NCBI RefSeq assembly: GCF_000744815.1
Contig: NZ_JQMQ01000005.1
Location: forward strand, 5,351,801-5,415,800
Source: Phaeacidiphilus oryzae TH49
GTDB taxonomy: Bacteria; Actinomycetota; Actinomycetes; Streptomycetales; Streptomycetaceae
Reading direction: 5' to 3'
Length of the DNA: 64,000 bases
The translations under genes and the position numbers were made by a program. The notes under the pieces were generated by a model. The model had not been told where the DNA came from and searched no databases. It saw nothing but the letters and a program-made list of their open reading frames with translations. This document shows positions 6,693 through 21,407 of this stretch, piece after piece; position 1 is the first letter of the stretch; every line of letters begins with the position of its first letter.

Positions 6693-6779
6693 GGACGGCT
6701 CTGTTCCGCGCCCGGCCGGTGCGCTTCGCTGGAGAGGCGTCAGGAACAAGCGCTCCGGCCGGCGTTCTGGGGAGGCGGC

Positions 6780-9176
6780 ATGGCGGACCGCAGCCAGGCC
6801 CCGCATCCTTCCGGGTTCTCGCACGCCCTGCCGCGGCGGTGGCTGGAACCGGGTCTGCTGGCGATCACCGGGGCGGCCCTGCTGGCCGGCGGGATCGCCT
6901 GGATCGCGGGCGACCAGGGCGCGGCCGATCTCTGCTGGGCCGTCGGCACGGTGGCGGCCGTCCCCCCGGCCGTGGGCTGGGTGGTCTCCGCACTGCGCCG
7001 CAAGCGGCCCGGGGTGGACCTGATCGCGGTGCTGGCGCTGGCCGGCACGCTGGCCGTGCGGGAGTACCTGGCCGGCGCCCTGATCGCGCTGATGCTGGCC
7101 ACCGGCCGCACCCTGGACGCCGCCGCCGAGCGGCGCGCCTCCCGGGACCTCCGCACCCTCCTCGAACGCGCCCCGCACTCGGCCCGCCGCCGCTGCGGCG
7201 TCGGGGGCGACATGGGCGAGGCGGGCGACGGGGGCGACGGGCGCGAGGCGGGTGACGGTAGCGGCGTCGAGACCGTGCCGCTCGACCGGATCCGCCCCGG
7301 CGACGTCCTGGTCGTGGCCCCCGGCGAGGTGCTGGGCGTGGACGGCCGGGTCGCGGCCGGCACGCCGGCCGTCCTCGACGAGTCGGCGCTGACCGGCGAG
7401 GCCGCACTGGTCGAGCACGCCCCCGGGGACCGGGTGCGCAGTGGGGTGGTCAACGCCGGGCCCGCCTTCGACCTGGTGGCCGCCGCCACCGCGGCGGACA
7501 GCACCTATGCCCGGATCGTCCGGCTGGCCGAGCAGGCCGGCGCGGAGCGGGCACCGGTGGTGCGGCTGGCCGAGCGGTACGCGGCGTGGTTCCTGCCGCT
7601 CTCCCTGGCACTGGCCGGCGCCGCCTGGGCGGCGGCCGGCTCCGCCGAGCGGGCGGTGGCGGTCCTGGTCGTGGCCACGCCCTGTCCGCTGCTGCTGGCG
7701 GCGCCGGTGGCGATCGTCTCCGGCCTGTCCAGGACCGCCCGGCTGGGCGTGATCACCCGGGACGGTGGGGCGCTGGAGCGGCTGGGCCGGGCCAGGACCC
7801 TGGTCCTGGACAAGACCGGGACGCTCACCGTCGGGCGGCCCAGGGTGCTGCAGACCGTCTCCGCCCCCGGCTGGTCGGGGGCCGAGGTGCTGCGGCTGGC
7901 CGCCGCAGTCGACCAGGTGTCCGCGCACGTCCTGGCCGAGGCGATCACCCGGGAGGCCAGGTCCCGCGGTCTCGCGCTGCCCGCTCCCGGGCAGGTCGCC
8001 GAGGAGCCCGGCCGGGGCGTCACCGGACTCGCCGAGGGCCGCACGGTGGCCGTCGGGCGGACCGCGGTGCCGCCGGCCGCCCGCCCGGACTGGGCCCGCA
8101 CGGCAGACAACCGGGCGGTCCTGGACGGCGCCGCCACCGTCTGGCTCACCGTCGACGGCGAGCTGGTGGGCGCGATCCTGCTGCAGGACCCGCTGCGCCC
8201 GGAGGCCCCGCGCACCCTGCGCCGGCTCCGCCAGGCCGGGCTGACCAGGCTGCTGATGCTGACCGGCGACCGGGCCGAGCCCGCCCGGGAGGTCGCCGCG
8301 GTGGTCGGCCTGGACGGCGTACGGGCCGAGCAGCTGCCCGCGGACAAGGTGGCCGCGGTCCGCGCGGAGAGCGCCCGGGCGGTGACCGTGATGGTCGGCG
8401 ACGGCCTCAACGACGCGCCCGCGCTGGCCGCGGCGGACGTCGGGGTGGCGATGGGGGCGCGCGGCTCCACCGCCTCCTCCGAGGCCGCCGACGTCGTGCT
8501 GACCACCGACCGGGTGGACCGGCTCGCCGACGCGATGGAGGTCGCCGTCCGGACCCGGCGGATCGCCGTGCAGTCCGCGGCCGGCGGGATGGTGATGTCG
8601 CTGCTGGCGATGGCCGTCGCGGCGGTGGGCCTGCTGCCGCCCGCGCCGGGCGCGCTGCTCCAGGAGGGGATCGACGTGCTGGTGATCCTCAACGCGCTGC
8701 GCGCCCTGCTGCCCCGGGCGGGCGCCCGGCCCGCGCTGGCCCCGGAGACCGAGCGGATGATCCGGCGCTTCGCCACCGAGCACGGCGATCTGGCCGACGT
8801 GCTGGACGCCGTCCGGGACGCCGCGAGCCTCCTCTCGGACGAGCGCGGGCCCCGGGCGCTGGCCGCCGTCAGAACCGTCGACCGGCTGCTGGCCCAGCGG
8901 CTGCTGCCGCACGAGCACGCCGAGGAGCACGAGCTCTACCCGGCCCTGGCCAAGCCGCTCGGCGGCCCCGAGGCCACCGCGACGATGAGCCGCGCCCACA
9001 CCGAGATCGACCGGCTGGCCCGCCGCATCGCCACCCATCTGCGGCTGGCCGACGCCGCCGGCCGGCTGCGCCCGGACCAGATCGACGACCTCCGCTCCTG
9101 CCTCTACGGCCTCCACACCGTGCTCCGCCTCCACTTCGTCCAGGAGGAGGAGAACTACTTCTCCCTGGCGCCCTGA
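6780..9176 (+). CDS. P1B-type metal ATPase fused to a C-terminal hemerythrin domain (P1B-5 like)
   Basis: A 798-residue membrane pump. Visible parts are about four N-terminal helices (24-110), the actuator motif LTGEA (204-208), the metal-site helix with TPCPL (300-304), the phosphorylation motif DKTGTLT (344-350), the hinge GDGLNDAP (540-547) and a last-helix QEGID (628-632). TPCP plus QExxD is the signature described for P1B-5 ATPases, linked to Ni or Fe export. Residues ~656-798 are a hemerythrin-like four-helix bundle with candidate diiron ligands His668, His711, His717, Glu718, His740, His779 and His785. The usual HP dipeptide is HV here, and no N-terminal CxxC metal domain is present. 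A good GGGAGG ribosome site precedes the ATG. Confidence 0.88.
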   Translation: MADRSQAPHPSGFSHALPRRWLEPGLLAITGAALLAGGIAWIAGDQGAADLCWAVGTVAAVPPAVGWVVSALRRKRPGVDLIAVLALAGTLAVREYLAGALIALMLATGRTLDAAAERRASRDLRTLLERAPHSARRRCGVGGDMGEAGDGGDGREAGDGSGVETVPLDRIRPGDVLVVAPGEVLGVDGRVAAGTPAVLDESALTGEAALVEHAPGDRVRSGVVNAGPAFDLVAAATAADSTYARIVRLAEQAGAERAPVVRLAERYAAWFLPLSLALAGAAWAAAGSAERAVAVLVVATPCPLLLAAPVAIVSGLSRTARLGVITRDGGALERLGRARTLVLDKTGTLTVGRPRVLQTVSAPGWSGAEVLRLAAAVDQVSAHVLAEAITREARSRGLALPAPGQVAEEPGRGVTGLAEGRTVAVGRTAVPPAARPDWARTADNRAVLDGAATVWLTVDGELVGAILLQDPLRPEAPRTLRRLRQAGLTRLLMLTGDRAEPAREVAAVVGLDGVRAEQLPADKVAAVRAESARAVTVMVGDGLNDAPALAAADVGVAMGARGSTASSEAADVVLTTDRVDRLADAMEVAVRTRRIAVQSAAGGMVMSLLAMAVAAVGLLPPAPGALLQEGIDVLVILNALRALLPRAGARPALAPETERMIRRFATEHGDLADVLDAVRDAASLLSDERGPRALAAVRTVDRLLAQRLLPHEHAEEHELYPALAKPLGGPEATATMSRAHTEIDRLARRIATHLRLADAAGRLRPDQIDDLRSCLYGLHTVLRLHFVQEEENYFSLAP

Positions 9177-9263
9177 GCCCGGGCTGATCTCTACGGGTGA
9201 ACGCCCCGTCGCAGGCTGTGGCGCCGTCAGGGCACCGCCGCGGGCGGCGGGCATGCTGGGCGG

Positions 9264-10541
9264 ATGACTGCTCATCTGCCCGCCGAGCCGCCGCTGCTGA
9301 TCGAGAACGTGCGGGTCTTCGACGGGATCGACGACCGGGTCGGCGAACCGCGTTCGGTGTACGTCGCGGGCGGCCGGATCGCGGCTGAGGGGGAGCCGCC
9401 GGCCCCGGACGCCGTGCGGCTGGACGGCGGCGGGCGGGTGCTGATGCCCGGTCTCACGGACGCCCACGTCCACCTCTTCGCCGTCGGGGTCACCATGCCG
9501 GAGGCGCTGATGGCGCCCACCGGGGTGCTCTACTACAAGGCGCTGGCCGAGGCGCACCGGATGCTGATGCGCGGCTTCACCACAGTGCGGGACATGGGCG
9601 GGGACACCGCCGCCCTGCGCCAGGTGATCGACGGCGGGCTGTTCCCCGGACCGCGGATCTATCCCAGCCAGGCCGCGATCTCGCAGACCAGCGGCCACGG
9701 CGACTTCTCCGAGGTGTTCCAGCCCGCCACCGCCTTCGGCGGAAAGCCCTCGCGGGCCGAGGACATCAGCTTCATGCGGGTCGCGGACGGCCCCGACCGG
9801 GTGCTGACCTCGGTGCGCGAGCAGCTGAAGCGCGGGGCCACCCAGATCAAGCTGATGGCCGGCGGCGGGGTCACCTCTGCTTACGACCCGCTGGACACCC
9901 TGCAGTTCACCGAGGAGGAGCTGCGGGTCGCGGTCCAGGCGGCCTCCGACTGGGGCACCTATGTCTCCGTCCACGTCTTCACCCCGGAGGGGATCCGCCG
10001 GGCGGTGGCGGCGGGGGTGCGCTCCATCGAGCACGGCCAGCTGGCCGACGAGGCGACGATCGCGCTGCTCGCCGAGAAGGGCGTCTGGCTGAGCACCCAG
10101 CCGTTCCTGGAGGGCGACCACACCTTCGCCTCCGCCGACTCCCGGGAGAAGAACCGCCGGGTGTGCGAGGGCGTGCGGCAGACCCTGGAGTGGGCCCGGG
10201 CCCACGGGGTGCGGATCGCCTTCGGGACCGACATGCTGCTCGACCCCTCGCAGAGCCACAAGCAGAACGAGATGCTCACCAGGCTCAGCACGCAGTTCGG
10301 CTTCACCCCCGTGGAGGCGCTGCGGATCGCCACCTCGAACAACGCCGAGCTGTTCCGCCTCGCCGGGGAGCGCGACCCGTACCGCCAGGCCGAGTTGGGC
10401 GTGATCCGGCCGGGCGCCTGGGCCGACCTGCTGGTCGTCGACGGGGACCCGACCCAGGACCTCTCCCTGCTGGCGAACCCGGAGGCGAGCCTCGCCCTGA
10501 TCGTGAAGGGCGGCAGGGTCTACAAGAACCTGCTGGGGTGA
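9264..10541 (+). CDS. metal-dependent amidohydrolase (imidazolonepropionase/prolidase-like)
   Basis: A 425-residue amidohydrolase-superfamily enzyme. The metal motifs are in order: DAHVHL for the first HxH, GATQIKLMAGGG with the likely carboxylated lysine, VSVHVF and SIEHGQ for the two further histidines, and FGTDML for the catalytic Asp. The C-terminal strand GVIRPGAWADLLVVDGDP is typical of the composite domain of this group. Such enzymes cut amide or dipeptide bonds; the substrate is not evident. A CATGCT element 7 nt upstream of the ATG suggests a leaderless start. The gene converges on the glycosidase with a hairpin between them. Confidence 0.88.
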   Translation: MTAHLPAEPPLLIENVRVFDGIDDRVGEPRSVYVAGGRIAAEGEPPAPDAVRLDGGGRVLMPGLTDAHVHLFAVGVTMPEALMAPTGVLYYKALAEAHRMLMRGFTTVRDMGGDTAALRQVIDGGLFPGPRIYPSQAAISQTSGHGDFSEVFQPATAFGGKPSRAEDISFMRVADGPDRVLTSVREQLKRGATQIKLMAGGGVTSAYDPLDTLQFTEEELRVAVQAASDWGTYVSVHVFTPEGIRRAVAAGVRSIEHGQLADEATIALLAEKGVWLSTQPFLEGDHTFASADSREKNRRVCEGVRQTLEWARAHGVRIAFGTDMLLDPSQSHKQNEMLTRLSTQFGFTPVEALRIATSNNAELFRLAGERDPYRQAELGVIRPGAWADLLVVDGDPTQDLSLLANPEASLALIVKGGRVYKNLLG

Positions 10542-10547
10542 GCCGGC

Positions 10548-10589
10548 GGCGCCGCCCCTCGCCTCTGTCGTCGAGGGGGGAGCGGCGCC
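10548..10589. terminator. bidirectional terminator between convergent genes
   Basis: The left arm GGCGCCGCCCCTCG (10548-10561) pairs with 10572-10589, with a small bulge in the right arm. It lies in the 63-bp gap between the amidohydrolase and glycosidase stop codons. Confidence 0.6.
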
Positions 10590-10604
10590 GGGCGGCCGAC
10601 GGGC

Positions 10605-12518
10605 CTACGGCACCGTCCACTTCTGGTTGGCGCCCCCGGTGCAGGTCCAGATCTGCAGCGGGGTGCCGTTGGCCGAGGTGTCCCCGGTGACGTCCAGGCA
10701 CTTGTCCGCCTGCGGGTTCACCAGGTCGTGGCCGGCGGTGTAGGTCCACTGCTGGGCGGCGGTGCCGTTGCAGCCGTAGAGGTCCACCTTGGTGCCGTCG
10801 GCGGTGCCGCCGCCGCTCACGTCCAGGCACTTGCCGAGCGCCTGGACGGTGCCGTCGGTGGCCGTGGTCCAGTGCTGGGCGGCGGTGCCGTTGCAGTCGT
10901 AGAGCTGGGCCTGGGTGCCGTCCGCGGTGGCCGCGCCCTGGACGTCCGCGCACTTGCCGTCGAGACCGGTGATCTGGCCGGTGGCCGGCGACCCGGCGGC
11001 GGCCTGGGTGCCGGACCAGGTGAAGGTGGCGGAGGTCTGCGCGGGCAGGCTGTAGTCGAAGGACTGGCCGCCCCAGACCACGTGCACCGGCTGGGCCGAG
11101 CCGCCGCCGTTGTAGGCGATCAGCGCCTTCGAGCCGTCCGGGTTGCTCCAGGCCACGTTCGGCACCGCGGTGGAGTCGGTGGAGTCGATCCGGTACGCAC
11201 CGGGCTTCACGAACTTGGTCAACTGGCCCATGTCGTAGTACTCGACGGTGTAGTCGACCTGTCCGCTGCGGCTGTCGCCGTCGTGCACGGTGACCAGGCC
11301 GGTGCAGGTGCCGCAGCCGCCGTTGTGGGGGCCGCCGTTCTGGTCGACCGCGAGCGACCACTTCACCACCGACTTACCCCAGTTGCGGGTGTAGTCGATG
11401 ATGTTGTGCATGTCCTCGTTCTGCTGGTTCGCGATCCAGGTGCCGCCGGAGTGCTCGGTGTCATAGGCGTCCACCGACGGGTACTGGTTGTGGACCGTGG
11501 TCTGCTCGTTGACGTCGCCGCCGTAGCCGTGCCAGGCGACGCCGCCGAAGAGCGGGTCGTTCCGCACGGTGGAGTCGTCCACCATGGCGGCGCCGTAGTT
11601 CGGGTAGGTGTCCCAGTTCCAGTCCAGGGCCAGCACCTTGGTGGAGAGACCGGCCGCGTGGAAGGCCGGCAGCAGGTCGTTCTTGGCGAAGTAGTCCAGG
11701 CCGGAGGCGTTCCAACTCATCGACGGGTAGCCGGAGCAGCAGGTCGGCTCGTTCTGCTCGGAGACGTAGTCGATGTGCACCCCCTGCGCGGCGTAGGCCT
11801 GGACGTACTTCACGAAGTACTGGGCGTAGGCGGCGTAGTACTGGCTCTGCAGCCAGCCGGGGGAGTCGAAGGTGTCGTCGTCCTTCATCCAGGCCGGGGC
11901 GGACCAGGGCGTCCCCATCACCTTGAGCTGGGGATTGAGCTGCTGGGCCTGCTTGGTGAGGGGCAGCACGTCGGTGAGGTCGTGGCCGATGGAGAAGCGG
12001 CTCAGCGAGGGGTCGGTCTGGCCGGCCGGCATGTCGTCGTACGAGTAGTCGTAGCGGGCCAGGTCGGAGGCGCCCATCGGGTTGCGGAGGAAGTCCAGGC
12101 CGATGCCGTTGGCCGGGTCGAAGAGCGCGGTCATCACACTGGAGCGGGTGCTCGCACTGAGGGCGCCACTGCTGTTCAGCAGGTAGCCCGCGGTGTCCGT
12201 CATCGAGGCGCCGCCGCCGGTGAACTGCTGGTACCGCTGGTTCTCGTCGACGGTGACGGTGTCGGCGCTGGTGCCGCCGCCGGTGCCGTCGTTGAAGGCG
12301 ATCGGGGACTGCTGCTGGAGGCCGCGGACGACGTGCCGGCCGGCCGAGTCGTCGGTGCTGGTGAGCCAGACGTTCACGGTGGGGCCGGCCGCGCTGGCGT
12401 GGTCGGGGGCGAGCCCGGCCAGGCCGGCGCCGAGGAGGGCGGCGCCGAACGCCCCGGCGAGCAGCCGGCGGAGCCGCGTTCGGGGTCTTCTGCTGGGTTC
12501 TCTGCTGGTGCTGGACAT
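10605..12518 (-). CDS. secreted GH30-family glycoside hydrolase with ricin-B lectin domain
   Basis: A 637-residue exported enzyme. A basic N-region and hydrophobic stretch end at an Ala-rich cleavage site near residue 44. The (beta/alpha)8 catalytic domain shows FTGGGASMTDTA near the start, the acid/base Glu257 in SEQNEP and the probable nucleophile Glu355 in DTEHSG. This is the pattern of clan GH-A family 30. A beta-sandwich follows (~440-505). Residues ~512-637 are a CBM13/ricin beta-trefoil with three QxW-type ends (AAQHW, AAQQW, ANQKW). Family members cut beta-1,6-glucans, galactans, xylans or glucosylceramide-type bonds; the exact substrate is not evident. Secretion fits plant or fungal polysaccharide use. 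Confidence 0.9.
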   Translation of the reverse strand: MSSTSREPSRRPRTRLRRLLAGAFGAALLGAGLAGLAPDHASAAGPTVNVWLTSTDDSAGRHVVRGLQQQSPIAFNDGTGGGTSADTVTVDENQRYQQFTGGGASMTDTAGYLLNSSGALSASTRSSVMTALFDPANGIGLDFLRNPMGASDLARYDYSYDDMPAGQTDPSLSRFSIGHDLTDVLPLTKQAQQLNPQLKVMGTPWSAPAWMKDDDTFDSPGWLQSQYYAAYAQYFVKYVQAYAAQGVHIDYVSEQNEPTCCSGYPSMSWNASGLDYFAKNDLLPAFHAAGLSTKVLALDWNWDTYPNYGAAMVDDSTVRNDPLFGGVAWHGYGGDVNEQTTVHNQYPSVDAYDTEHSGGTWIANQQNEDMHNIIDYTRNWGKSVVKWSLAVDQNGGPHNGGCGTCTGLVTVHDGDSRSGQVDYTVEYYDMGQLTKFVKPGAYRIDSTDSTAVPNVAWSNPDGSKALIAYNGGGSAQPVHVVWGGQSFDYSLPAQTSATFTWSGTQAAAGSPATGQITGLDGKCADVQGAATADGTQAQLYDCNGTAAQHWTTATDGTVQALGKCLDVSGGGTADGTKVDLYGCNGTAAQQWTYTAGHDLVNPQADKCLDVTGDTSANGTPLQIWTCTGGANQKWTVP

Positions 12519-12585
12519 GGGGACTGACCTTCCGTGGGGCGAAGGACCGATGTCGATGCCATGGCCATGGCTTATTTCAAGGCGT

Positions 12586-12615
12586 GATTTAACTTGTGAG
12601 CTGATCCACCGTCAA
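12586..12615 (-). promoter_or_regulatory. candidate promoter of the GH30 gene
   Basis: Reading the minus strand, TTGACG (12615-12610) and TAAATC (12591-12586) are spaced by 18 bp, close to the housekeeping consensus. It lies about 70 bp upstream of the ATG in a locally AT-rich patch. The 12-bp palindrome CCATGGCCATGG (12559-12570) falls in the leader. The rest of the 383-bp gap (12519-12901) shows no gene. Confidence 0.55.
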
Positions 12616-12901
12616 GTCCCCGCGTCCGACTAATACTTCTGAACACAAGAGGGGCGTGGTGGCGCGGAGTGCCGTGTGCCAGGGTCGGAAGATGGAGTTC
12701 TTCGAGTCGCTGCCGCGTCCGGAGCCCCCGCCGCGGCCGGCGCGACCCCGGCCGCCGCGCTGGATGCGGCCGGACGGCGTGCGCCGGAAGGCCCGCAGCC
12801 GTCGTAGGCGTGCCTGGCCCCGCGGACCGATCGGGTGACGCGGGCGGCGGGGCCGTGCGGGTGTTCCGGATCGGGCCGTGCCCGGGGGCAGGCTCGGGTC
12901 C

Positions 12902-13501
12902 ATGACCCGTCACCGCGTGCTCCGCGTCGCCGCCGCCGTCGTCCTCCTCACCGCTGCCGCCGCTGCGGCCACCGCGGCCGCCGCTGCCACCGCTGCCACC
13001 GCCACCGCAATCACCGCTCCGAGTTGGCCCGCGCCCCCGCCCGCGGAGGTCCCGGCCGCCGCTCACCGTGCGGGTCTGGAGATCCTCGGAGAGGAGGGCA
13101 CCGTGCTCCACGTCCACGTCCACCTCGATGTCTTCGTGGACGGGCGGCCGGTCACCGTTCCCGCGGGGATCGGCATCGACCCGGTCCGCCGGCTCTACAG
13201 CGAACTCCACACCCACGACACCAGCGGCGTCATCCACGTCGAGGCCCCGCGCCAAGCCGTCTTCACCCTCGGCCAGTTCATGGCCGAGTGGGGCCACCCC
13301 ATCCCCTCCGCCCGCCTCGGCGCCCCGGCCGCCAGCCCTCGGCGAGCGGTCACCGTCTGGCTCGACGGCCGCCTCGCCGAGGGTGATCCAGCGGCCGTCC
13401 CGCTCCGCGAGCACGACGAGATCGCCCTCGTCCTCGGCGGGGCCCTGCCCTCGGCCCCGCTGCCGGCGGACTACGACTGGAGCCGCAGGCCCGGGCTCTG
13501 A
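12902..13501 (+). CDS. secreted His-rich protein of unknown function
   Basis: A 199-residue protein from ATG 12902 (an in-frame GTG lies at 12878). The N-terminus is a basic start plus a long Ala/Thr hydrophobic stretch, a signal peptide or anchor. The mature part begins with HVHVHLDVFVDGRPVTVPAG, then has HTHDTSGVIHVE and ends with two predicted beta-rich segments (AVTVWLDGRL, EIALVLGG). The alternating histidines could bind a metal. I recognise the HxHxHLxVxVxG pattern from uncharacterised actinobacterial secreted proteins but cannot name a function. It converges on the DUF1349 gene with only 7 bp between the stop codons. Confidence 0.75.
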   Translation: MTRHRVLRVAAAVVLLTAAAAAATAAAAATAATATAITAPSWPAPPPAEVPAAAHRAGLEILGEEGTVLHVHVHLDVFVDGRPVTVPAGIGIDPVRRLYSELHTHDTSGVIHVEAPRQAVFTLGQFMAEWGHPIPSARLGAPAASPRRAVTVWLDGRLAEGDPAAVPLREHDEIALVLGGALPSAPLPADYDWSRRPGL

Positions 13502-13508
13502 CCCCTGC

Positions 13509-14123
13509 TCAGGAACCGTCCCGCAGGTCCTCGGGGGCGCCCGAAGCGAAGGCGATGCGATCGAAGACGGCGGTGCAGCCGGCGCCCGTCGGCGACTGGC
13601 TGAGGAAGCCGACGGCGGTCCGCCCGGGCGCGGGCTCGTCGAGGGTGAAGTAGCGCAGGAGGCGCCAGAGTTCACCGTCCGCCGACGCGTGGAAGGCCCA
13701 GGCGCGGCCGGTCCTGGTTATCCGGAGCCACAGGGTGTCGCCGTCCACCTCGAAGGCGTTGGCGTCGTCCGAGCTGCCGCGGGTGACGACGGTGACGGCG
13801 GTCGGCCTCTTCTGCGGGGAGTACTCGAAGCACAGCTTGGCCCAGTGCTCCTCGTCCGCGTGGACGAGGAGCACGCCCGCGTCGAAGGTCGAGCCGAAGC
13901 CGACCCGGACCCGGGCGGCGAGCCGGAAGTCCCCCTCCGGCGGCACGCCCGCGAGCCGTCCGGTCTCCGCGGGCGGGTGGGCGCCGCCGGGGTCGGTGAA
14001 GAGGTCGGTGCCGGCCGCCGCGGTCAGGGTCAGCACGGGGCCTTCGGTGAGGCGGTGGGCGACCGCGGGCGCGCCCTGCGAGGCGAGCGGAAACGGCAGG
14101 CCCGGGACGGTGGCTGTGGTCAT
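13509..14123 (-). CDS. DUF1349 (concanavalin-like beta-sandwich) protein
   Basis: A 204-residue cytoplasmic beta-sandwich protein. The DUF1349 hallmarks are visible: TDLFTDPGG early, FDAGVLLVHADEEHWAKLCFEYSP in the middle and WLRITRTGRAWAFHASADGELWRLLRYF later. The related YesU-like fold resembles carbohydrate-binding lectins, but no activity is established. ATG at 14123 is chosen because a TTGACA-N17-GAGGGT promoter ends 6 nt upstream, implying a leaderless mRNA. Confidence 0.82.
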   Translation of the reverse strand: MTTATVPGLPFPLASQGAPAVAHRLTEGPVLTLTAAAGTDLFTDPGGAHPPAETGRLAGVPPEGDFRLAARVRVGFGSTFDAGVLLVHADEEHWAKLCFEYSPQKRPTAVTVVTRGSSDDANAFEVDGDTLWLRITRTGRAWAFHASADGELWRLLRYFTLDEPAPGRTAVGFLSQSPTGAGCTAVFDRIAFASGAPEDLRDGS

Positions 14124-14129
14124 CGCCCA

Positions 14130-14158
14130 ACCCTCGGCGCCCGCAAGGCGGTTGTCAA
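14130..14158 (-). promoter_or_regulatory. candidate leaderless promoter of the DUF1349 gene
   Basis: On the minus strand, a perfect TTGACA (14158-14153), a 17-bp spacer and GAGGGT (14135-14130) lie 6 nt before the ATG at 14123. Confidence 0.5.
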
Positions 14159-14367
14159 CGCCGGCCCGGGAGGGCCGAGGGGCCGGGGAGCCGGGGAGCC
14201 GGAAGGGGTTGGACAAGTCCGGATCACGGGCAGACGACCATCTGGCATCGAGGTCGGCGCTGCTGTTGCCACTCGCCGGGGTGCTGGGCATAGACCGGCT
14301 GGGTCACAAGCTCCGCAGACGAAGCACATTCAACGCACGTTCACGGGACGGACGGTGAGTCGGCTAC

Positions 14368-16059
14368 ATGGCTGCTAGGAACACCCTGACCGCCCAGGAG
14401 GCCACGGAGCACCTGGGCCGGTCGAAGCTCAAGCGGGACATGGGCATCGTGAGCCTGCTGTTCGCCGGCGTCGGCTCGATCATCGGCTCCGGCTGGCTGT
14501 TCGGCGCGCTCAACGCCGCCAAGCTGGCCGGGCCCTCCTCGATCCTCTCCTGGCTGATCGGCGCGGTGATGATCCTGCTGATCGGCCTCTGCTTCTCCGA
14601 ACTGGGCCCGATGATCCCGCTGTCCGGCGGGGTGGTCCGGTTCCCGCACTTCTCCTTCGGCTCCTTCGCGAGCTACGCGATGGGCTGGATCACCTGGATC
14701 GCGGCCGCCACGGTCGCGCCGATCGAGGTCGAGGGCGCGCTCACCTACGCCACCAAGTGGGCGAGGCTGACGACCAGTCACCCCGACGGCTCGCACACCC
14801 TCACCGGCCTCGGCTACGCCCTGGCGGTGATCGGGATGGCCGTCTTCGTCGTCGTCAACTACGTCGGCATCCGCTGGTTCGCCCGCCTCAACAACGTGCT
14901 GGTGGGCTGGAAGCTGCTGATCATCCTGCTGGTCGTGGCCGCGTTCCTGGCCACCGCCTTCCACGGCCACAACTTCGACGCCACCGAGTACGGCAAGGGC
15001 GGCGGCTTCGCCCCCGGCGGTGCCAAGGGCATCTTCACCGCGATCGCCACCGCCGGCATCACCTTCTCCTTCCTCGGCTTCCGGCAGGGCATCGAGCTGG
15101 CCGGGGAGACCGACAACCCCAAGCGGAACATCCCGATCGCCATCATCGGCTCGGTGCTCCTCTGCGGGCTGATCTACGTGCTGCTGGAGGTGGCCTTCAT
15201 CGGCGCCGTGCCCAAGGGCGACCTGGCGCACTCGCACGGCTGGATCAACCTCAACTACGCCAACGACTTCGGGCCGCTGGCCGCCATCGCCTCGGTGATC
15301 GGCCTCGGCTGGCTGGCCGTCACCCTCTATGTCGACGCCGTCATCTCCCCGGCCGACACCGGCCTGGTCTACACGACGGTCACCGCCCGCTGCTCGTACG
15401 CGATGGGACGCAACGGCAACGCCCCGCGGTCGCTGTCGAGGACGACGGAGAAGAACGGCGCCCCGGTGGTCAGCCTGCTGGTGGCGTTCGTCGTGGGCCT
15501 GATCGTCTTCCTGCCCTTCCCGAGCTGGCAGCAGCTGGTCGGGTTCATCACCTCGGCGACGGTGCTGTCCTTCGGCGTCGGGCCGCTGGTGCTGTCCGCG
15601 ATGCGGCGCCAGGCGCCGGACCTGCCCAGGCCGTTCAAGCTGCCGGGCGGGGACCTCATACCGTTCCTGGCGCTGTACTCCTCGAATCTGATCGTCTTCT
15701 GGGCCGGCTGGACGACCGACTGGAAGCTCTTCGCCGCCATCCTCCTCGGCCTGGTGCTGCTGCCCTTCTTCCAGGCGCGGGCCGGCGGCAGCGCTCCCCA
15801 GCTGAACCTGCGGGCCGGCTGGTGGGTGGTCCTCTGGCTGGCCATGCTGGCGGTGCAGAGCTGGCTCGGCGGCTTCGACGGCGGGCGGAACATCATCGGC
15901 CTCGGCTGGGGCTTCGGCACCAACGCGGTCATCACCCTGGTGACCTTCGTGCTGGCGATGCGGTTCCGCCTCCCCGCCGAGGAGGTCCTCCCGCACACCG
16001 AAGCCGCCCTGGCCGAAGCAACCCCCACAGCCGAACCGGCAACGGCAGCCGGCGCCTGA
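14368..16059 (+). CDS. APC-superfamily amino acid permease
   Basis: A 563-residue inner-membrane transporter with about 12-13 helices. The APC entry motif in helix 1 is clear (LFAGVGSIIGSGWLFGA). The helix 6 region has GITFSFLGFRQGIELAGETDNPKRNIP, in which Glu-Asn-Pro-Lys-Arg-Asn is the conserved APC loop. It probably imports or exchanges an amino acid or amine with protons. The C-terminal ~25 residues are an Ala/Glu/Thr-rich tail. Upstream is a 244-bp gap shared with the divergent DUF1349 gene. The ribosome site is weak (GGTGAG). Confidence 0.9.
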   Translation: MAARNTLTAQEATEHLGRSKLKRDMGIVSLLFAGVGSIIGSGWLFGALNAAKLAGPSSILSWLIGAVMILLIGLCFSELGPMIPLSGGVVRFPHFSFGSFASYAMGWITWIAAATVAPIEVEGALTYATKWARLTTSHPDGSHTLTGLGYALAVIGMAVFVVVNYVGIRWFARLNNVLVGWKLLIILLVVAAFLATAFHGHNFDATEYGKGGGFAPGGAKGIFTAIATAGITFSFLGFRQGIELAGETDNPKRNIPIAIIGSVLLCGLIYVLLEVAFIGAVPKGDLAHSHGWINLNYANDFGPLAAIASVIGLGWLAVTLYVDAVISPADTGLVYTTVTARCSYAMGRNGNAPRSLSRTTEKNGAPVVSLLVAFVVGLIVFLPFPSWQQLVGFITSATVLSFGVGPLVLSAMRRQAPDLPRPFKLPGGDLIPFLALYSSNLIVFWAGWTTDWKLFAAILLGLVLLPFFQARAGGSAPQLNLRAGWWVVLWLAMLAVQSWLGGFDGGRNIIGLGWGFGTNAVITLVTFVLAMRFRLPAEEVLPHTEAALAEATPTAEPATAAGA

Positions 16060-16174
16060 CCCCCACCCCGCCTCCCCGCCCGGAGCGCGCCACCCCGACG
16101 CGCACCGGGCGCCGCGCGCTCTAGGCTCCGGGCCCGCGCCCCGCACGGGACCGTGGGTGGTGGGCTTGGATGGG

Positions 16175-17104
16175 TCAGTCTGCCGTGGTGTACGCGCCTG
16201 CGGCGATGTCTTCCAGGAGGGTGGGGCCGGTCGGGGTCCAGTCGAGGAGTTTGCGGGTGCGGTCGCTGGAGGCGGGGATGTCCATGCCGAAGAAGCGTCC
16301 GATCCAGCCGAAGTGGGCGTCGGCGTCCTCGGCGGCGACGGAGACCGTCGGCAGCCCCAGGGAGGCGCCGATCGCGGCGGCGATGTCCCGGGACGGAACG
16401 CCCTCCTCGGCCACCGCGTGCACCCGGCTGCCCGCCGGCGCCTGCTCCAGCGCGAGCCGGACCAGCCGGGCCGCGTCCGAGCGGTGGACGGCCGCCCAGC
16501 GGGTGGAGCCGTCGCCGACGTACCCGGCCGCCCCGCGCTCCCGGGCCACCTTCGTCAGCTGCGCGGTGAAGCCGTGGTCGCGCATCCCGTGGACCGTGGG
16601 GGAGAAGCGCAGGGCCACCGGCCGCACCCCGCGCTCGGCGTAGGAGAGGGCGAGGTTCTCGCTGCCGCCGCGCATCGAGTCGGCGCCGTGGAACGGGGAG
16701 GGGTCCTCCTCGGTCAGCGGTCGGCCGGGGGAGCCGGAGGCGAGCCCGGAGGCGATCAGGAACGGCCGCGCCTCCCCGCTGCCGCCGGCGCTGCCGTTGC
16801 CGCCGTCGGCGATCGCGTCGAGCATCCGCAGCACCGCCTGGTGCTCGCTGCGGCCGGCGGCGGCGTAGTCGTCGAAGTCGTGCTTGAAGGCGAGGTGGAT
16901 CACGGCGTCGGCGGCCTTCGCCGCCTTGGCCAGTCCGTCCGTGTCGTCCAGGTCGCCGCGGTGGACGGCGGCCCCCTTCGCCTGGAGCCCGGCGGCCGAG
17001 GCCGCTGAGCGGGCGAGCCCGACCACCTGGTGGCCGTGGGCGAGGAGTTCGTCGGTGACCGCGGAGCCGATCCAGCCGGTGGCGCCGGTGACGAAGACGC
17101 GCAT
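16175..17104 (-). CDS. NAD(P)-dependent epimerase/dehydratase-like extended SDR
   Basis: A 309-residue Rossmann protein with the N-terminal nucleotide motif VTGATGWIGSAV (TGxxGxxG). The strand AVIHLAFKHD replaces the usual NAAG-type strand. The active-site region is atypical: the YxxxK motif is not evident, and SGLASGSPGRPLTE is where the catalytic Ser/Tyr would lie. It resembles the SDR subgroup annotated as NAD-dependent epimerases or NmrA-like reductases. It is divergent from a TetR gene, and the 113-bp gap holds two matching operators, so it is the probable target of that repressor. Confidence 0.85.
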   Translation of the reverse strand: MRVFVTGATGWIGSAVTDELLAHGHQVVGLARSAASAAGLQAKGAAVHRGDLDDTDGLAKAAKAADAVIHLAFKHDFDDYAAAGRSEHQAVLRMLDAIADGGNGSAGGSGEARPFLIASGLASGSPGRPLTEEDPSPFHGADSMRGGSENLALSYAERGVRPVALRFSPTVHGMRDHGFTAQLTKVARERGAAGYVGDGSTRWAAVHRSDAARLVRLALEQAPAGSRVHAVAEEGVPSRDIAAAIGASLGLPTVSVAAEDADAHFGWIGRFFGMDIPASSDRTRKLLDWTPTGPTLLEDIAAGAYTTAD

Positions 17105-17148
17105 GTCGAACGTCCTTCCGCAAGGGAACGGGGAGAAGGCCAGCAGCC

Positions 17149-17165
17149 ATGTCAGCGGCTGACAT
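17149..17165. promoter_or_regulatory. TetR operator 1 (perfect palindrome)
   Basis: ATGTCAGCGGCTGACAT is a perfect 17-bp palindrome centred on 17157. It lies between the epimerase start and that gene's likely -10 (TAGGCT on the minus strand, 17176-17171). Confidence 0.7.
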
Positions 17166-17183
17166 CACTAAGCCTAGCACTTT

Positions 17184-17200
17184 ATGTCAGCGACTGTCAT
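17184..17200. promoter_or_regulatory. TetR operator 2 (imperfect palindrome)
   Basis: ATGTCAGCGACTGTCAT repeats operator 1 with two base changes, 35 bp centre to centre. It covers the probable -35 of the epimerase gene and lies just upstream of TAGACT (17204-17209), the likely -10 of the TetR gene. A repressor bound here would block both promoters. Confidence 0.65.
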
Positions 17201-17217
17201 CGGTAGACTCGCTCGGC

Positions 17218-17796
17218 ATGGGCCGCTGGGAACCGAACGCGCGTGAGCGGATGATGCGTGCCGCGCTGGAGCTCTTCGCCGAGTACGGCTTCGAGCAGAC
17301 GACGGCGGGGGACATCGCGGCCAGCGCCGGGGTCACCGAGCGCACCTTCTTCCGGCACTTCGCCGACAAGCGCGAGGTGCTCTTCGATGGCGCGGCCACG
17401 CTGGACCGGATCGCCTGCGAGGCGATCCTCGCCGCGCCCGCGGACCACACGGCGCTGGACGCCGCGTTGGCCGGCGTGGTGGCCGGCGGCGAACTGCTGG
17501 AGGGCCGCCGCGAGTACGCGACCGTCCGCGCCCGGATCGTCGCCTCTCATCCCAGCCTGCGGGAGCGCGAGCTGCTGAAGCTGGCGAAGCTCGCCGAGTC
17601 GGTCGCCGAGGCGCTCCGCACCCGCGGGGTGTCCGAGCCGGAGGCGAGCCTGGCCGCGCACAGCGCGGTCACCGTCTTCCATGTGGCCTTCGTCCGCTGG
17701 ATCGGGTCCGTCGCCGACCCCGGCGCGGCTGACGGCCGGCCGACCTTCGCCGAGTGCGCCGCCGGCATCGCCGCGGCCTTCCGTGCCCTGAAGTGA
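17218..17796 (+). CDS. TetR-family transcriptional regulator
   Basis: A 192-residue regulator. The N-terminal helix-turn-helix reads MRAALELFAEYGFEQTTAGDIAASAGVTERTFFRHFADKREV when taken in parts around residues 12-55. The C-terminal ligand domain is alpha-helical and unique to each member. ATG 17218 is preferred over GTG/ATG codons further upstream because those lie inside the operators, and TAGACT sits 8 nt before it, pointing to a leaderless mRNA. It is divergent from the epimerase gene and probably represses both. Confidence 0.88.
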   Translation: MGRWEPNARERMMRAALELFAEYGFEQTTAGDIAASAGVTERTFFRHFADKREVLFDGAATLDRIACEAILAAPADHTALDAALAGVVAGGELLEGRREYATVRARIVASHPSLRERELLKLAKLAESVAEALRTRGVSEPEASLAAHSAVTVFHVAFVRWIGSVADPGAADGRPTFAECAAGIAAAFRALK

Positions 17797-17894
17797 CTTG
17801 AAGTGACCTGAAGTGCCCTGAAGCGGGCGGAGGCGACCCGCGGCGACCCCGCAGTGAGCCGGTCTCCCCGCGAGGGGAAAGATTGCCCAAACTA

Positions 17895-17923
17895 TTGTCA
17901 ACAAAATCGGTGACGGTTAGGCT
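17895..17923 (+). promoter_or_regulatory. promoter of the ligJ-ligI-transporter cassette
   Basis: TTGTCA (17895-17900), a 17-bp spacer and TAGGCT (17918-17923) make a good housekeeping promoter 32 bp before the ATG. The -35 overlaps TTGTCAACAA, an inverted repeat of the TTGT..ACAA type seen in many GntR operators. No GntR gene is adjacent. Confidence 0.55.
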
Positions 17924-17954
17924 GCCAACGCTTCGACCTGGAAAGAGGGCACCG

Positions 17955-18992
17955 ATGATCATCGACTGCCATGGGCACTTCACCACAGCGCCGCCGGCAC
18001 TCGGGGAGTGGCGGAACCGGCAGATACGGGCCGTCGAGGGCGGCGGCGACCCCGCCCCCGCCGCGCCCGCCCCCGCCGACCTCCGCATCGGCGACGACGA
18101 GCTGCGCGCGGCCATCGAGGGCAACCAGCTCCGGCTGATGGACGAGCGCGGGATCGACCTCACGGTCTTCTCCCCGCGCGCCTCCTTCATGGCCCACCAC
18201 ATCGGCGACTTCTCGACCTCCTCCCAGTGGGCGGCGATCTGCAACGACCTGGTGCACCGGGTCTGCTCGCTCTATCCGACCCGCTTCGCCCCGGCCGCGA
18301 TGCTGCCGCAGTCGCCCGGCGTCGACCCGGCGACCTGCGTCCCCGAACTGGTCCGCTGCGCCGAGGAGCTGGGCGTGGTCGCGGTGAACCTCAACCCCGA
18401 CCCCTCCGGCGGCCACTGGAACGCCCCGCCGCTCACCGACCGGTACTGGTACCCGGTCTACGAGAAGCTGGTGGAGTACGACCTGCCGGCCATGGTGCAC
18501 GTCAGCACCAGCGTCAACCCGGCCTTCCACACCACCGGTTCGCACTATCTCAACGCCGACACCACGGCCTTCATGCAGCTGCTGCAGGGCGACCTGTTCG
18601 CCGACTTCCCCACCCTGCGGCTGGTCATCCCGCACGGCGGCGGGGCGGTGCCGTACCACTGGGGACGGCTGCGCGGGCTCGGCATGGCGCTCGGCAGGCC
18701 GCCGCTGGACAAGCACCTGCTGGACAACGTCTTCTTCGACACCTGCGTCTACCACCAGCCCGGCATCGACCTGCTGCTGAAGGTCGTCCCGCGGCGGAAC
18801 GTCCTCTTCGCCTCCGAGATGATCGGCGCCGTCCGCGGCATCGATCCGGAGACCGGGGAGTACTTCGACGACACCCGCCGCTACGTCGAGTCGGCCGGCC
18901 TGCCCGCCGACGAGCTGGCCGCCGTCCAGGAGGGCAACGCCCGCGCGGTCTACCCGCGGCTGGACGCCCTGCTGAAGAGCCAGGGACGCTGA
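17955..18992 (+). CDS. ligJ: 4-oxalomesaconate hydratase, LigJ-like
   Basis: A 345-residue amidohydrolase-superfamily protein. Long stretches read as LigJ: MIIDCHGHFTTAP at the start, EGNQLRLMDERGIDLTVFSPRASFMAHHIGDF in pieces near residue 60, NLNPDPSGGHWNAPPLTDRYWYP, IPHGGGAVPYHWGR and FASEMIGAVRGIDP. LigJ hydrates 4-oxalomesaconate to 4-carboxy-4-hydroxy-2-oxoadipate in the protocatechuate 4,5-cleavage and gallate routes. The ATG at 17955 matches the family N-terminus, with AAAGAGGG upstream. It is followed after 14 bp by the LigI-like gene, whose product would supply its substrate. Confidence 0.88.
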   Translation: MIIDCHGHFTTAPPALGEWRNRQIRAVEGGGDPAPAAPAPADLRIGDDELRAAIEGNQLRLMDERGIDLTVFSPRASFMAHHIGDFSTSSQWAAICNDLVHRVCSLYPTRFAPAAMLPQSPGVDPATCVPELVRCAEELGVVAVNLNPDPSGGHWNAPPLTDRYWYPVYEKLVEYDLPAMVHVSTSVNPAFHTTGSHYLNADTTAFMQLLQGDLFADFPTLRLVIPHGGGAVPYHWGRLRGLGMALGRPPLDKHLLDNVFFDTCVYHQPGIDLLLKVVPRRNVLFASEMIGAVRGIDPETGEYFDDTRRYVESAGLPADELAAVQEGNARAVYPRLDALLKSQGR

Positions 18993-19006
18993 GGGGAGCG
19001 ACCGCG

Positions 19007-19978
19007 ATGAGCAGCACCACCGGCGGACCCGCCGCCGCCTTCACCAAGACCCCCGGCTGGCTGGACTGGTACCCGAACCCCAGCAGGCCCCGGTTCGCCC
19101 TCCCGCCCGGCGCCGTCGACGCCCACTGCCATGTCTTCGGCCCCGGCGCCGAGTTCCCCTACGCGCCCGAGCGCAAGTACACCCCCTGCGACGCCGGCAA
19201 GGACCGGCTGTTCGCCCTCCGCGACCACCTCGGCGTCAGCCGCAATGTGGTCGTCCAGGCCACCTGCCACGGTGCCGACAACAGCGCCATGGTGGACGCC
19301 GTGCGGGCGGCCGGCGGCCGGGCGCGCGGGGTCGCCACCGTCCGCCCCGACATCGCGGACGCCGAACTGCGCCGGCTGGACGCCGCCGGGGTCCGCGGGG
19401 TCCGCTTCAACTTCCTGAAGCGGCTGGTGGATTCGGCGCCCAAGGACGATCTGCGGGCGATCGCGGAGAAGGTCGCGCCGCTCGGCTGGCACGTCGTCAT
19501 CTACTTCGAGGCCGCCGACCTCGCCGAGCTGGAGGGCTTCTTCGGCTCGCTGCCGACCCCGCTGGTGGTCGACCACATGGGCCGCCCGGACGTCCGGAAG
19601 CCGGTCGACGGCGAGGAGTTCGACCGCTTCCTCCGCTTCGTCGACCGCAACAGCGGGGACGGCGGCAGCGGCGGGCGCGGGGTGTGGGTCAAGACCAGCT
19701 GCCCCGAGCGGCTCTCGGTGTCCGGGCCGCCCGCGCTGGACGGCGAGTCCCAGGCCTACCAGGACGTGGTGCCGTTCGCCCGCCGGGTCGTCCGGGAGTT
19801 CCCGGACCGCGTGCTGTGGGGCAGCGACTGGCCGCACCCCAACCTCACCGGGCACATGCCCGACGACGGGCTGCTGGTGGACTGGATCCCGTGGATCGCC
19901 GAGACCGCCGAGCAGCAGCGGAAGCTCCTGGTCGACAACCCGATGCGGCTGTACTGGCCGGAGGAGTCCGCCGGCTGA
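19007..19978 (+). CDS. ligI: 2-pyrone-4,6-dicarboxylate hydrolase, LigI-like
   Basis: A 323-residue amidohydrolase. Family features are GAVDAHCHVFGPGAEFPYAP (metal HxH region), RNVVVQATCHGADN, VRFNFLKRLVD, LVVDHMGRPD and the C-terminal WGSDWPHPN with the catalytic Asp. LigI opens the lactone of 2-pyrone-4,6-dicarboxylate to 4-oxalomesaconate. It lies between the LigJ gene and an MFS transporter gene, 14 and 43 bp away, so the three probably form one transcript. No dioxygenase (LigAB), dehydrogenase (LigC) or aldolase (LigK) is near. Confidence 0.88.
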   Translation: MSSTTGGPAAAFTKTPGWLDWYPNPSRPRFALPPGAVDAHCHVFGPGAEFPYAPERKYTPCDAGKDRLFALRDHLGVSRNVVVQATCHGADNSAMVDAVRAAGGRARGVATVRPDIADAELRRLDAAGVRGVRFNFLKRLVDSAPKDDLRAIAEKVAPLGWHVVIYFEAADLAELEGFFGSLPTPLVVDHMGRPDVRKPVDGEEFDRFLRFVDRNSGDGGSGGRGVWVKTSCPERLSVSGPPALDGESQAYQDVVPFARRVVREFPDRVLWGSDWPHPNLTGHMPDDGLLVDWIPWIAETAEQQRKLLVDNPMRLYWPEESAG

Positions 19979-20021
19979 CCCGGCCCCCGCCAACCCCCCA
20001 CCCACTCACGGCAGGCCACTC

Positions 20022-21407
20022 ATGCAACAGCTCAACATCGCGAACCGGCTGGACAGACTGCCCATCTCGCGCTTCCACCGCACTGCTCTGGTGGCCGTGT
20101 CGTTCGCGTACTTCTTCGAATTCGCCGACGTCAACAGCTTCTCCGCGACCTCCCCGCGGCTGATCAAGCTCTGGGGGGTCAGCGTCAGCCAGGTCGCCTA
20201 TGTGACCTCGCTGTCGTTCGTGGGGATGTTCGTCGGGGCGCTGGTGGCCGGCGGTATCGCCGACCGCTTCGGGCGAAAGCGCGCCCTCACCCTCACCACC
20301 ATGGGCTTCTCGGTCTTCTCGCTGGCGGCGGTCTTCTCCTGGAACCTGGTCTCGCTGGGCGTGTTCCGGGTGCTCACCTCGGCCGGGCTGTCCGCGATGA
20401 CCGTGGTCGCGGTGATCTACGTCAACGAGCTGTTCCCCAAGGCGGTCCGGGGCAAGTACCAGGCGTACGCGATCGTGATCGGCATCTGCGGGACGCCGGT
20501 CACCAACTTCGTGGCCAGCGCCGTGGTTCCGCTCAACCACTGGTCGTGGCGGCTGGTCTACCTGTGGGGCGCGCTGGGGGCCGTGTACCTCTTCTTCGGC
20601 CGGCGGCTGGTGGAGTCCCCGCGCTGGTACGAGAGCCGCGGGGCGACCGAGGAGGCCGACGCGGTGCTGCGGGAGATCGAGCGGCGGGTGGCGGCGGAGA
20701 AGGGCCCGCTGGCCGAGCCGGAGCCGCAGTCGGACGTGCCGGCACCGGGCCGGGCGCCGCTCAGACTGCTGCTCCAGCGCCGCTATCTGATGCCCACGCT
20801 GCTGCTGACGGTCCTCTGGGTGACCCAGACCATCGGCTTCTTCGGCTACTCGACCTGGGCGCCGACACTGCTGGCCAAGCACGGCTTCAGCGTCGAGAAG
20901 TCCATCTTCTACGTGGCCCTCTCCACCGTGGGCGCGCCGCTCGGCTCCTACCTGGCCGCGGTGGTCACCGACCGCTTCGAGCGGAAGTGGTGCCTGGTCG
21001 CGTTCGGCAGCGTGATCGCCGTCTGCGGTCTGCTCTACGGGCTCACCTTCAACCCGGTGATGATCGTCGCCTTCGGCTTCCTGGTGAACCTCTTCGAGCG
21101 CGGCTACACCGCCCTCGGCTACGCCTACTCGCCGGAGCTGTACGACACCCGCGGCCGCTCACTCGGCACCGGCGTCTCGTACGGCCTCGGCCGGCTCTCC
21201 AACGCGGCCGGACCGCTGATCATCGCGGCCCTCTACACCTGGCAGGGCTACCGCAGCGTCTTCATCTTCATCGCCGCCACCTGGCTGGTGGGGGCGATCG
21301 TGCTGGCCGTCTTCGGCCCCCGCACCAGGGGGCGCGACCCCGAGGAGGTCGCGGGTGCCGTCGAGGGGGCCGAGCGGGGGTCTCCCGAGACCACGGCCGC
21401 CGGCTGA
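20022..21407 (+). CDS. MFS transporter, aromatic-acid/sugar-porter type
   Basis: A 461-residue, 12-helix MFS protein. The helix 2-3 loop carries GGIADRFGRKRAL, and helix 4-5 has ELFPKAVRGKYQAY, as in the AAHS and related sugar-porter families that import aromatic acids. The central cytoplasmic loop is about 60 residues. The family, and its place directly behind the LigJ and LigI genes, suggest that it imports 2-pyrone-4,6-dicarboxylate or a related lignin-derived acid. That substrate is inference from context. Confidence 0.88.
   Translation: MQQLNIANRLDRLPISRFHRTALVAVSFAYFFEFADVNSFSATSPRLIKLWGVSVSQVAYVTSLSFVGMFVGALVAGGIADRFGRKRALTLTTMGFSVFSLAAVFSWNLVSLGVFRVLTSAGLSAMTVVAVIYVNELFPKAVRGKYQAYAIVIGICGTPVTNFVASAVVPLNHWSWRLVYLWGALGAVYLFFGRRLVESPRWYESRGATEEADAVLREIERRVAAEKGPLAEPEPQSDVPAPGRAPLRLLLQRRYLMPTLLLTVLWVTQTIGFFGYSTWAPTLLAKHGFSVEKSIFYVALSTVGAPLGSYLAAVVTDRFERKWCLVAFGSVIAVCGLLYGLTFNPVMIVAFGFLVNLFERGYTALGYAYSPELYDTRGRSLGTGVSYGLGRLSNAAGPLIIAALYTWQGYRSVFIFIAATWLVGAIVLAVFGPRTRGRDPEEVAGAVEGAERGSPETTAAG

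Follow-up and report, generated by a model that had tools for sequence, protein, structure and literature searches.

The gal pathway of Pseudomonas putida KT2440 comprises a dioxygenase (GalA), a hydratase (GalB), an aldolase (GalC), a tautomerase (GalD), and a transporter (GalT). Catabolism of syringyl lignin is best known from sphingomonads and pseudomonads, and 2-pyrone-4,6-dicarboxylate (PDC) is a polymer precursor. Here, we describe a three-gene cassette predicted to encode a 4-oxalomesaconate (OMA) hydratase (LigJ), a PDC hydrolase (LigI), and a major facilitator superfamily (MFS) transporter in a 64,000-nucleotide stretch of Phaeacidiphilus oryzae TH49 (contig C5, positions 5351801–5415800; ‘the window’), the genome of which totals 7.8 Mb in six contigs. 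We put at roughly two in three the probability that this trio and a gntR-ligK-ligU-VOC operon are the two halves of a catabolic regulon split between two loci, in which the VOC protein opens the aromatic ring and flux runs as proposed below. L-numbers designate loci and G-numbers designate genomes, G000 being the source genome.

Published work bears on several of the steps. In Sphingobium SYK-6, opening of 3-O-methylgallate leads to PDC or 4-carboxy-2-hydroxy-6-methoxy-6-oxohexa-2,4-dienoate (CHMOD), and opening of gallate leads to OMA (PMC6888825). GalA of P. putida turns 3-O-methylgallate into PDC, and VanAB yields both 3-O-methylgallate and gallate from syringate (PMC12481942). Gallate and methylgallate dioxygenases have been placed in the LigB superfamily, with other substrates named for VOC enzymes (PMC4250580), and protocatechuate 4,5-cleavage is already known in actinobacteria (PMC8431788).

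Under the scheme that we propose, one GntR regulator, probably a repressor, would switch both loci via ATTGTYRACRAT-like operators near their promoters. A VOC-family extradiol dioxygenase would open gallate to OMA and 3-O-methylgallate to PDC, in place of LigAB or GalA; the MFS protein would import PDC, and LigI would convert PDC, whether imported or made inside the cell, to OMA. LigU would tautomerise OMA, LigJ would hydrate OMA to 4-carboxy-4-hydroxy-2-oxoadipate (CHA), taking the role of the GalB missing from the operon, and LigK would cleave CHA to pyruvate and oxaloacetate. A gallate-type dioxygenase that also takes 3-O-methylgallate, as GalA does in producing PDC (PMC12481942), would account for a need for LigI without LigC.

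Like the gal genes of KT2440, this system has its aldolase and tautomerase genes in one operon, which in most relatives read also includes GalB and an MFS gene; unlike them, it has a predicted ring opener of the VOC type (type I) rather than a LigAB-type GalA, and in P. oryzae LigJ stands for GalB and LigI is added. Relatives of LigJ, LigI, LigK, and LigU also occur in the protocatechuate 4,5-cleavage systems (lig of Sphingobium SYK-6, pmd of Comamonas, pcm of Arthrobacter keyseri, and pca of Pseudarthrobacter Sphe3), from which the present arrangement differs in that no LigAB and no close LigC were found in the genome, the genes are split between two loci, and the regulator is of the GntR type as opposed to the LysR type of Sphe3. 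PDC and OMA are likewise the ring-opening products in the syringate and 3-O-methylgallate routes of SYK-6 (DesZ, DesB, and LigAB; PMC6888825), but the known openers there belong to the LigB superfamily (type II), whereas a VOC protein is predicted here.

If this reading is true, a type I gallate/3-O-methylgallate opener would fill the missing step in actinobacteria without LigAB and would explain LigI/LigJ cassettes that have neither LigAB nor LigC beside them. Likewise, an exchange of GalB for LigJ within one regulon would clearly exemplify non-orthologous replacement accompanied by rewiring of control. The new point, a VOC protein as the gallate/3-O-methylgallate ring opener, is predicted from context and is, in our judgement, probable; neither a type I gallate dioxygenase nor such a two-locus arrangement turned up among the search listings of the open-access literature.

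Genes of the two loci

The three cassette genes lie head to tail on the forward strand, with gaps of 14 and 43 bases and intact translations. A preliminary description had the cassette begin at 17895, which falls in the promoter/operator; ligJ (17955–18992) starts at the ATG at 17955. LigJ, of the amidohydrolase type, matches the solved OMA hydratase 2gwg over its full length (E 4e-165, 552 bits) and the solved OMA hydratases 6dwv/6dxq with E 2.6e-145 (487 bits), its match to the LigY-type 5vn5 being much weaker (174 bits). The ligI product (19007–19978) is predicted to hydrolyse PDC: its residues 20–327 align with the solved PDC hydrolase 4d8l (E 2.6e-106, 359 bits), which we take to be the SYK-6 enzyme, and its DAHCH (HxH) and DWPHP motifs, presumably including catalytic residues, align with those of 4d8l. 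The third gene (20022–21407) encodes an MFS protein closest to the aromatic acid/H+ symport type (TIGR00895, 211.6 bits, under the cut-off of 418.55), and PDC, OMA, or an aromatic acid is its candidate cargo. The earlier assignment of LigJ and LigI is thus borne out by matches to solved structures.

The second locus (L098, C5:6.32 Mb) lies 0.95 Mb from the cassette on the same contig and consists of gntR, ligK (10281–10991), ligU (10991–12130), and a VOC dioxygenase gene (12206–13273, with a possible alternative start at the Met codon at 12311; coordinates within L098). Searches with PF03737 and PF04303 gave adjacent RraA-like and PrpF-like genes at C5:6322356 and 6323018. LigK (GalC, CHA aldolase) scores 303.6 against NF006731, over the cut-off of 179, and 269.1 against TIGR02798, under 304.5; LigU (GalD, OMA tautomerase) scores 438.6 against NF033377 (cut-off 440), with a relative in L198 at 478.6; the VOC protein scores as a type I extradiol dioxygenase (TIGR03211, catechol 2,3-dioxygenase, 333.2 over 320.2). 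The CHA aldolase and OMA tautomerase genes share one operon, and given these matches each conversion on the way from PDC down to pyruvate and oxaloacetate has a candidate gene at one locus or the other. The suggestion that the cassette might connect to enzymes elsewhere has therefore gained support from LigK, LigU, and the VOC protein, which are encoded at L098 behind a shared operator. The absence of LigK noted at the same time holds for the cassette and fails for the genome, which encodes two aldolases (ligK of L098 and ligK2 of L097) and a tautomerase as well. GalB is absent from L098 in a tblastn search that finds it in 28 other loci.

Two neighbours of this operon may be mentioned: a UbiX-type flavoprotein gene (PF02441; L098 6760–7383) about 3 kb ahead of it, and a gene set with the look of phenylacetyl-CoA epoxidase genes after it, on the opposite strand (13281–17070).

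Relatives were sought in a species-genome scan, which gave at least 80 LigJ loci, the 22 actinobacterial ones among the matches listed being compared by tblastn, and in a survey of 394 Streptomycetaceae genomes evenly drawn from a larger group. LigJ, LigI, and the transporter are neighbours in Streptomyces, Amycolatopsis, and Arthrobacter, sometimes together with ligU and ligK and sometimes without them. The trio lacks ligK and ligU in its operon in L017–L019, L025, and L028 (Streptomyces) and in L020, L023, L026, and L027 (Amycolatopsis); the order ligU-ligJ-ligK-ligI-MFS occurs in L021, L022, L024, L031, L033, L050, and L066; and ligJ occurs without LigI in L029, L030, L032, and L034. A third arrangement, ligJ-ligK-ligI-ligAB-ligC with a 4-hydroxybenzoate 3-monooxygenase gene (pobA) in front, is found in L064 (Streptomyces sp. 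H27-H1) and L076 (S. amritsarensis); with a fused ligAB and a ligC-like gene, these are complete protocatechuate 4,5-cleavage clusters in Streptomyces.

In the family survey, LigI is present in 58 genomes, 28 of which also have fused LigAB, and LigAB relatives (E ≤ 1e-60) are present in 36 (29 at ≥83 per cent identity, two of these being partial matches). Among the best 30 of the 58 LigI loci (four more were read later), the same transporter gene adjoins ligI in all 25 without ligAB and in none of the five with it, where ligAB follows instead. The cassette is real and belongs, as a fairly common element, to the aromatic catabolism of actinobacteria. The idea of a rare import finds little room beside this frequency, and a recent transfer from proteobacteria is unsupported: in a quick LigJ tree, the 22 actinobacterial rows fall on one side of a branch with 100 per cent support (the careful search is unfinished, several end branches are long, and the branch of 3.6 for LigJ2, a second LigJ of this genome, is at odds with its 61 per cent identity), and the codon-position base composition of the cassette is that of the window.

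The predicted ring opener and its operon

The closest solved sequence to the VOC protein is 9wgj, deposited as ‘Catechol 1,2-dioxygenase’ (E 3.9e-114), followed by 7q2a (AphC) and 3lm4; 9wgj did not appear in the fold-search results listed. A model of the VOC protein (mean pLDDT 79.4) superposes on 3lm4 and 7q2a with VIA Z of 37.9 and 37.4, root-mean-square deviations of 2.0 and 2.1, and 297 and 299 aligned positions. The protein resembles the type I extradiol dioxygenases AphC (7q2a and 3lm4), catechol 2,3-dioxygenase, and homoprotocatechuate 2,3-dioxygenase in fold and active site: H154, H220, and E271 (numbered as in the first row of the alignment) are invariant in 24 aligned relatives and align with the metal ligands of 1mpy and 1f1x, giving a 2-His-1-Glu site. 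It differs from those enzymes in its operon context, which is OMA metabolism, and in a tyrosine that occupies, in all 24 relatives aligned as well as in 9wgj, the position of H200 of homoprotocatechuate dioxygenase, which we take to be the catalytic acid–base histidine. This tyrosine sets the VOC group apart from those classical type I enzymes that were included in the alignment. BLC23O of Bacillus ligniniphilus, considered as a precedent, is inactive on pyrogallol, and protocatechuate, which was tested, is not among the substrates reported as active (PMC8671467).

The VOC enzyme (E ≤ 1e-80) is found in 70 of the 394 family genomes, in 68 of them at ≥64 per cent identity, a count that leaves out G019 and G145 (45–48 per cent). 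At this identity it occurs in 17 of the 30 LigI genomes without fused LigAB versus none of the 28 with it, among which G019 has its VOC protein at 45 per cent; a LigB relative at 53–55 per cent identity is present in two of the 17 (G245 and G285) and in two of the other 13 (G085 and G384). We read the VOC loci of 37 of the 70 genomes, namely every LigI genome that has VOC at ≥64 per cent (17) and 20 hand-picked LigI-free ones, most of them high in the list of matches. Their genes usually run gntR-galB-ligK(galC)-ligU(galD)-VOC-MFS, with a GalB that matches the solved OMA hydratase 5cgz (E 1.4e-80), presumably GalB of P. putida. VOC, LigU, and LigK occur together in 33 of the 37 loci, with galB in 28 of these and in none of the remaining five. 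No VOC locus contains LigAB, and LigC gives one 28 per cent match only, by queries that find both in L064, L076, and L094; from this operon content, the VOC gene appears to stand where a gallate dioxygenase gene belongs. Since 18 of the 33 loci belong to genomes that lack LigI, the product of ring opening would be expected to join the route at OMA, and this would point to gallate.

Outside the family survey, the VOC gene is present in six of the 22 actinobacterial LigJ loci (L020, L027, and L030 of Amycolatopsis; L029, L032, and L033 of Arthrobacter; called proteins 68–72 per cent identical). Two of these, L029 and L032 (Arthrobacter sp. zg-Y844 and zg-Y769), hold VOC, gntR, ligU, ligJ, and ligK, with no LigI or transporter of this kind in the locus, and would be the shortest, minimal version of the proposed route, with entry at OMA.

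A fuller version of our reading holds that the VOC protein is a gallate/3-O-methylgallate dioxygenase of type I, with tyrosine for the usual catalytic histidine, that it takes the place of the non-homologous GalA/DesB in Streptomyces, Amycolatopsis, and Arthrobacter, and that the cassette is an accessory branch in which LigJ replaces GalB under the same regulator and LigI serves PDC formed from 3-O-methylgallate; for this whole set of claims, we see the balance as even.

The shared operator and the exchange of hydratases

A GntR-type operator, TATTGTCAACAAAATCG, lies upstream of ligJ (17893–17909, forward strand) and is common to the gntR-ligK-ligU-VOC operon, which has a second site, TATTGTTGACGATTTCG, upstream of gntR at C5:6321490–6321506. 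With a pattern built from these two sites, the 7.8-Mb genome contains two sites at zero mismatches, none at one, and three at two, and the reversed control contains none; the only sites within one mismatch are therefore those of the cassette and of the VOC operon. A probable promoter, recognised by eye, consists of TTGTCA (17895–17900), a 17-nucleotide spacer, and TAGGCT (17918–17923), and its TTGTCA hexamer sits within the conserved operator. As for the one good promoter of the preliminary description, a strict sigma-70 consensus scan found none at the cassette; promoter-like spacing was also seen by eye in L020 and others.

Of 39 regions lying upstream of gntR in VOC loci, 38 contain the wider motif ATTGTYRACRAT with at most one mismatch, as do 5 of 15 ligJ-ligI-MFS loci of the family (our own counted) and 6 of 11 named loci. 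Letter shuffles reach this level in 2 of 3,300 cases; in this scoring, the window was entered twice (as L114 and as the window), and the 11 named loci included L022, a ligU-ligJ-ligK-ligI operon. Within 300 bp upstream of ligJ, the operator is present in 5/5 genomes with a galB-less VOC operon versus 0/10 with galB (P = 0.0003, uncorrected for kinship; the ten include G362 and not G197). Because the genomes are related, this and the following P-values are only a guide. The Amycolatopsis loci L020, L027, and L030 (the last with ligJ alone) also fit the operator pattern. From this distribution we infer that the two loci are co-regulated.

The galB-less full operons are those of G000, G055, G199, G282, and G386. 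All five are in LigI genomes, with ligJ in the ligI operon, versus 10 of the 28 operons with galB (P = 0.013); these ten include G197, in which the region upstream of ligJ is unread, and not G362, the galB of which was seen separately. In Amycolatopsis and Arthrobacter, all six named VOC loci contain ligJ, and galB is absent from them. Given this complementarity, two unrelated OMA hydratases, GalB and LigJ, appear to replace each other. A similar division concerns the aldolase: with fused-ligAB genomes, G392 (ligI-MFS only), and G197 (operon unread) left out, 14 of 15 LigI-MFS operons without ligK have a VOC gene in the genome versus 2 of 13 with ligK (P = 5e-5); ligK is missing from the trio in genomes whose VOC operon provides the aldolase.

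A different upstream word, GAATGTAGACCAC, is found in ligJ loci without the operator (nine of ten in the family and four of five among the named loci). By eye, a divergent response regulator and sensor kinase adjoin ligJ or ligI in the operator-less trio loci L017, L019, L028, and L236, and partly in L025, and an NMT1-like substrate-binding protein (PF16868 in L028) is encoded there as well. This suggests two-component control of trio cassettes without the GntR operator.

Competing explanations and other aromatic genes

Several observations weigh against a two-locus regulon with a VOC ring opener. The protein activities invoked here are predicted throughout; TIGR03211 names the VOC family catechol 2,3-dioxygenase, and the gallate-type substrate is read from the neighbours only; LigU falls 1.4 bits below its NF033377 cut-off; and the whole-genome search that found no GalB, with LigJ present instead, was run without a positive control. 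The zero mismatches at our own two operator sites arise by construction, since the pattern was drawn from them. G085 has the operator without a VOC gene, L197, L220, and L223 have VOC without LigU, LigK, or galB, and L203 has LigU and neither LigK nor galB. Within the genome, the LigJ2/LigK2 pair of L097 could supply the same steps, and a LigB-superfamily gene (L100 8570–9610; 39.9 bits over the Pfam cut-off of 26.3) may be another ring opener.

The trio might instead scavenge, with the MFS protein importing PDC (or OMA) from other microbes, LigI and LigJ feeding LigU and LigK, and the VOC operon a separate pathway that shares only the regulator and the last enzymes. Among the 58 genomes with LigI, 11 show no LigAB relative (E ≤ 1e-60) and no VOC (E ≤ 1e-80), although they were searched for these two dioxygenase families only; eight of them carry gntR and ligU-ligJ-ligK-ligI-MFS, two the same without ligU, and one ligI-MFS only. 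Such a self-contained module, in which the enzymes can score well (L238 tautomerase 478.4 over 440, aldolase 384 over 304.5), would require imported PDC alone, and the constant company of LigI and a transporter where ligAB is lacking is in keeping with it. We nevertheless hold scavenging to be rather unlikely for P. oryzae: its trio shares an operator with a dioxygenase operon, and across the family genomes compared LigI-MFS operons without ligK go with VOC in 14 of 15 cases.

That the trio is simply what is left of a protocatechuate 4,5-cleavage cluster after loss of ligAB and ligC is suggested by the clusters of L064 and L076 and by the 28 LigI genomes with fused LigAB, but is very improbable given intact genes and the recurrence of LigJ, LigI, and the transporter without ligAB in three actinobacterial genera. 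Equally improbable is that the trio belongs with the cluster at C5:6.48 Mb in the degradation of a phthalate-like or biaryl compound. That cluster (L097, C5:6472001–6490000; genes at 6777–16190) has LigJ2 (61 per cent identical to LigJ; E 7e-135 to solved OMA hydratases), LigK2 (326.1 bits over 304.5), a Rieske oxygenase with a LigXa_C domain, and decarboxylase-like genes, but it has a LigJ and LigK of its own, and it shows no match to LigI, LigU, or VOC and no operator site within two mismatches. The question whether a full pathway with its own ligI and ligJ exists elsewhere thus has a divided answer: LigI is single-copy (E ≤ 1e-60), and there is a second LigJ/LigK pair. In our view, L097 is a cluster for an aromatic acid, as yet uncharacterised, and its route should likewise finish with the cleavage of CHA. 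It further encodes an alcohol dehydrogenase, a ferredoxin-like protein (by eye), and a ketopantoate hydroxymethyltransferase-like protein, and two of its proteins, to which Pfam gives no match, presumably resemble 4,5-dihydroxyphthalate decarboxylase.

As for the ring-opening dioxygenase and LigC, noted earlier as missing from the cassette, no LigAB and no close LigC were found in the genome. No relative of Streptomyces LigAB was found in G000 at E ≤ 1e-60, and the best LigC-like match has 33 per cent identity over residues 6–254, within a broad oxidoreductase family, the size of which makes LigC hard to exclude by similarity. PF02900 (LigB superfamily) gave two matches, one to a DODA-like protein, which with 136.9 bits stays below the cut-off of 233 of the 4,5-DOPA dioxygenase model, and one, in L100, short and C-terminal; a LigB-superfamily gallate dioxygenase of the GalA/DesB kind was not found by the PF02900 and LigAB searches, the VOC gene being in the operon instead. 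The LigB-superfamily gene of L100, on contig C4, adjoins a benzoate-dioxygenase-like Rieske gene and aldehyde-dehydrogenase-like genes (by eye), and would belong to a separate ring-cleavage cluster.

Three further candidates were not upheld. A Rieske oxygenase/reductase pair near an IclR gene in L103 was considered as a VanAB-type demethylase, an identity that is a guess only; it received no NCBIfam vanillate assignment, and the closest solved relative is dicamba O-demethylase (E 2e-48). GFO/IDH genes near some VOC operons were considered as LigC; the one tested (L209 2029–3189) is closest to levoglucosan dehydrogenase, below cut-off. In the window, a TetR gene (17149–17796) is unlikely to regulate the trio, being divergent to an epimerase gene (16175–17104); this epimerase/TetR pair (16175–17796) has a similar-looking second copy, by eye, on contig C4 (L099 17208–19059).

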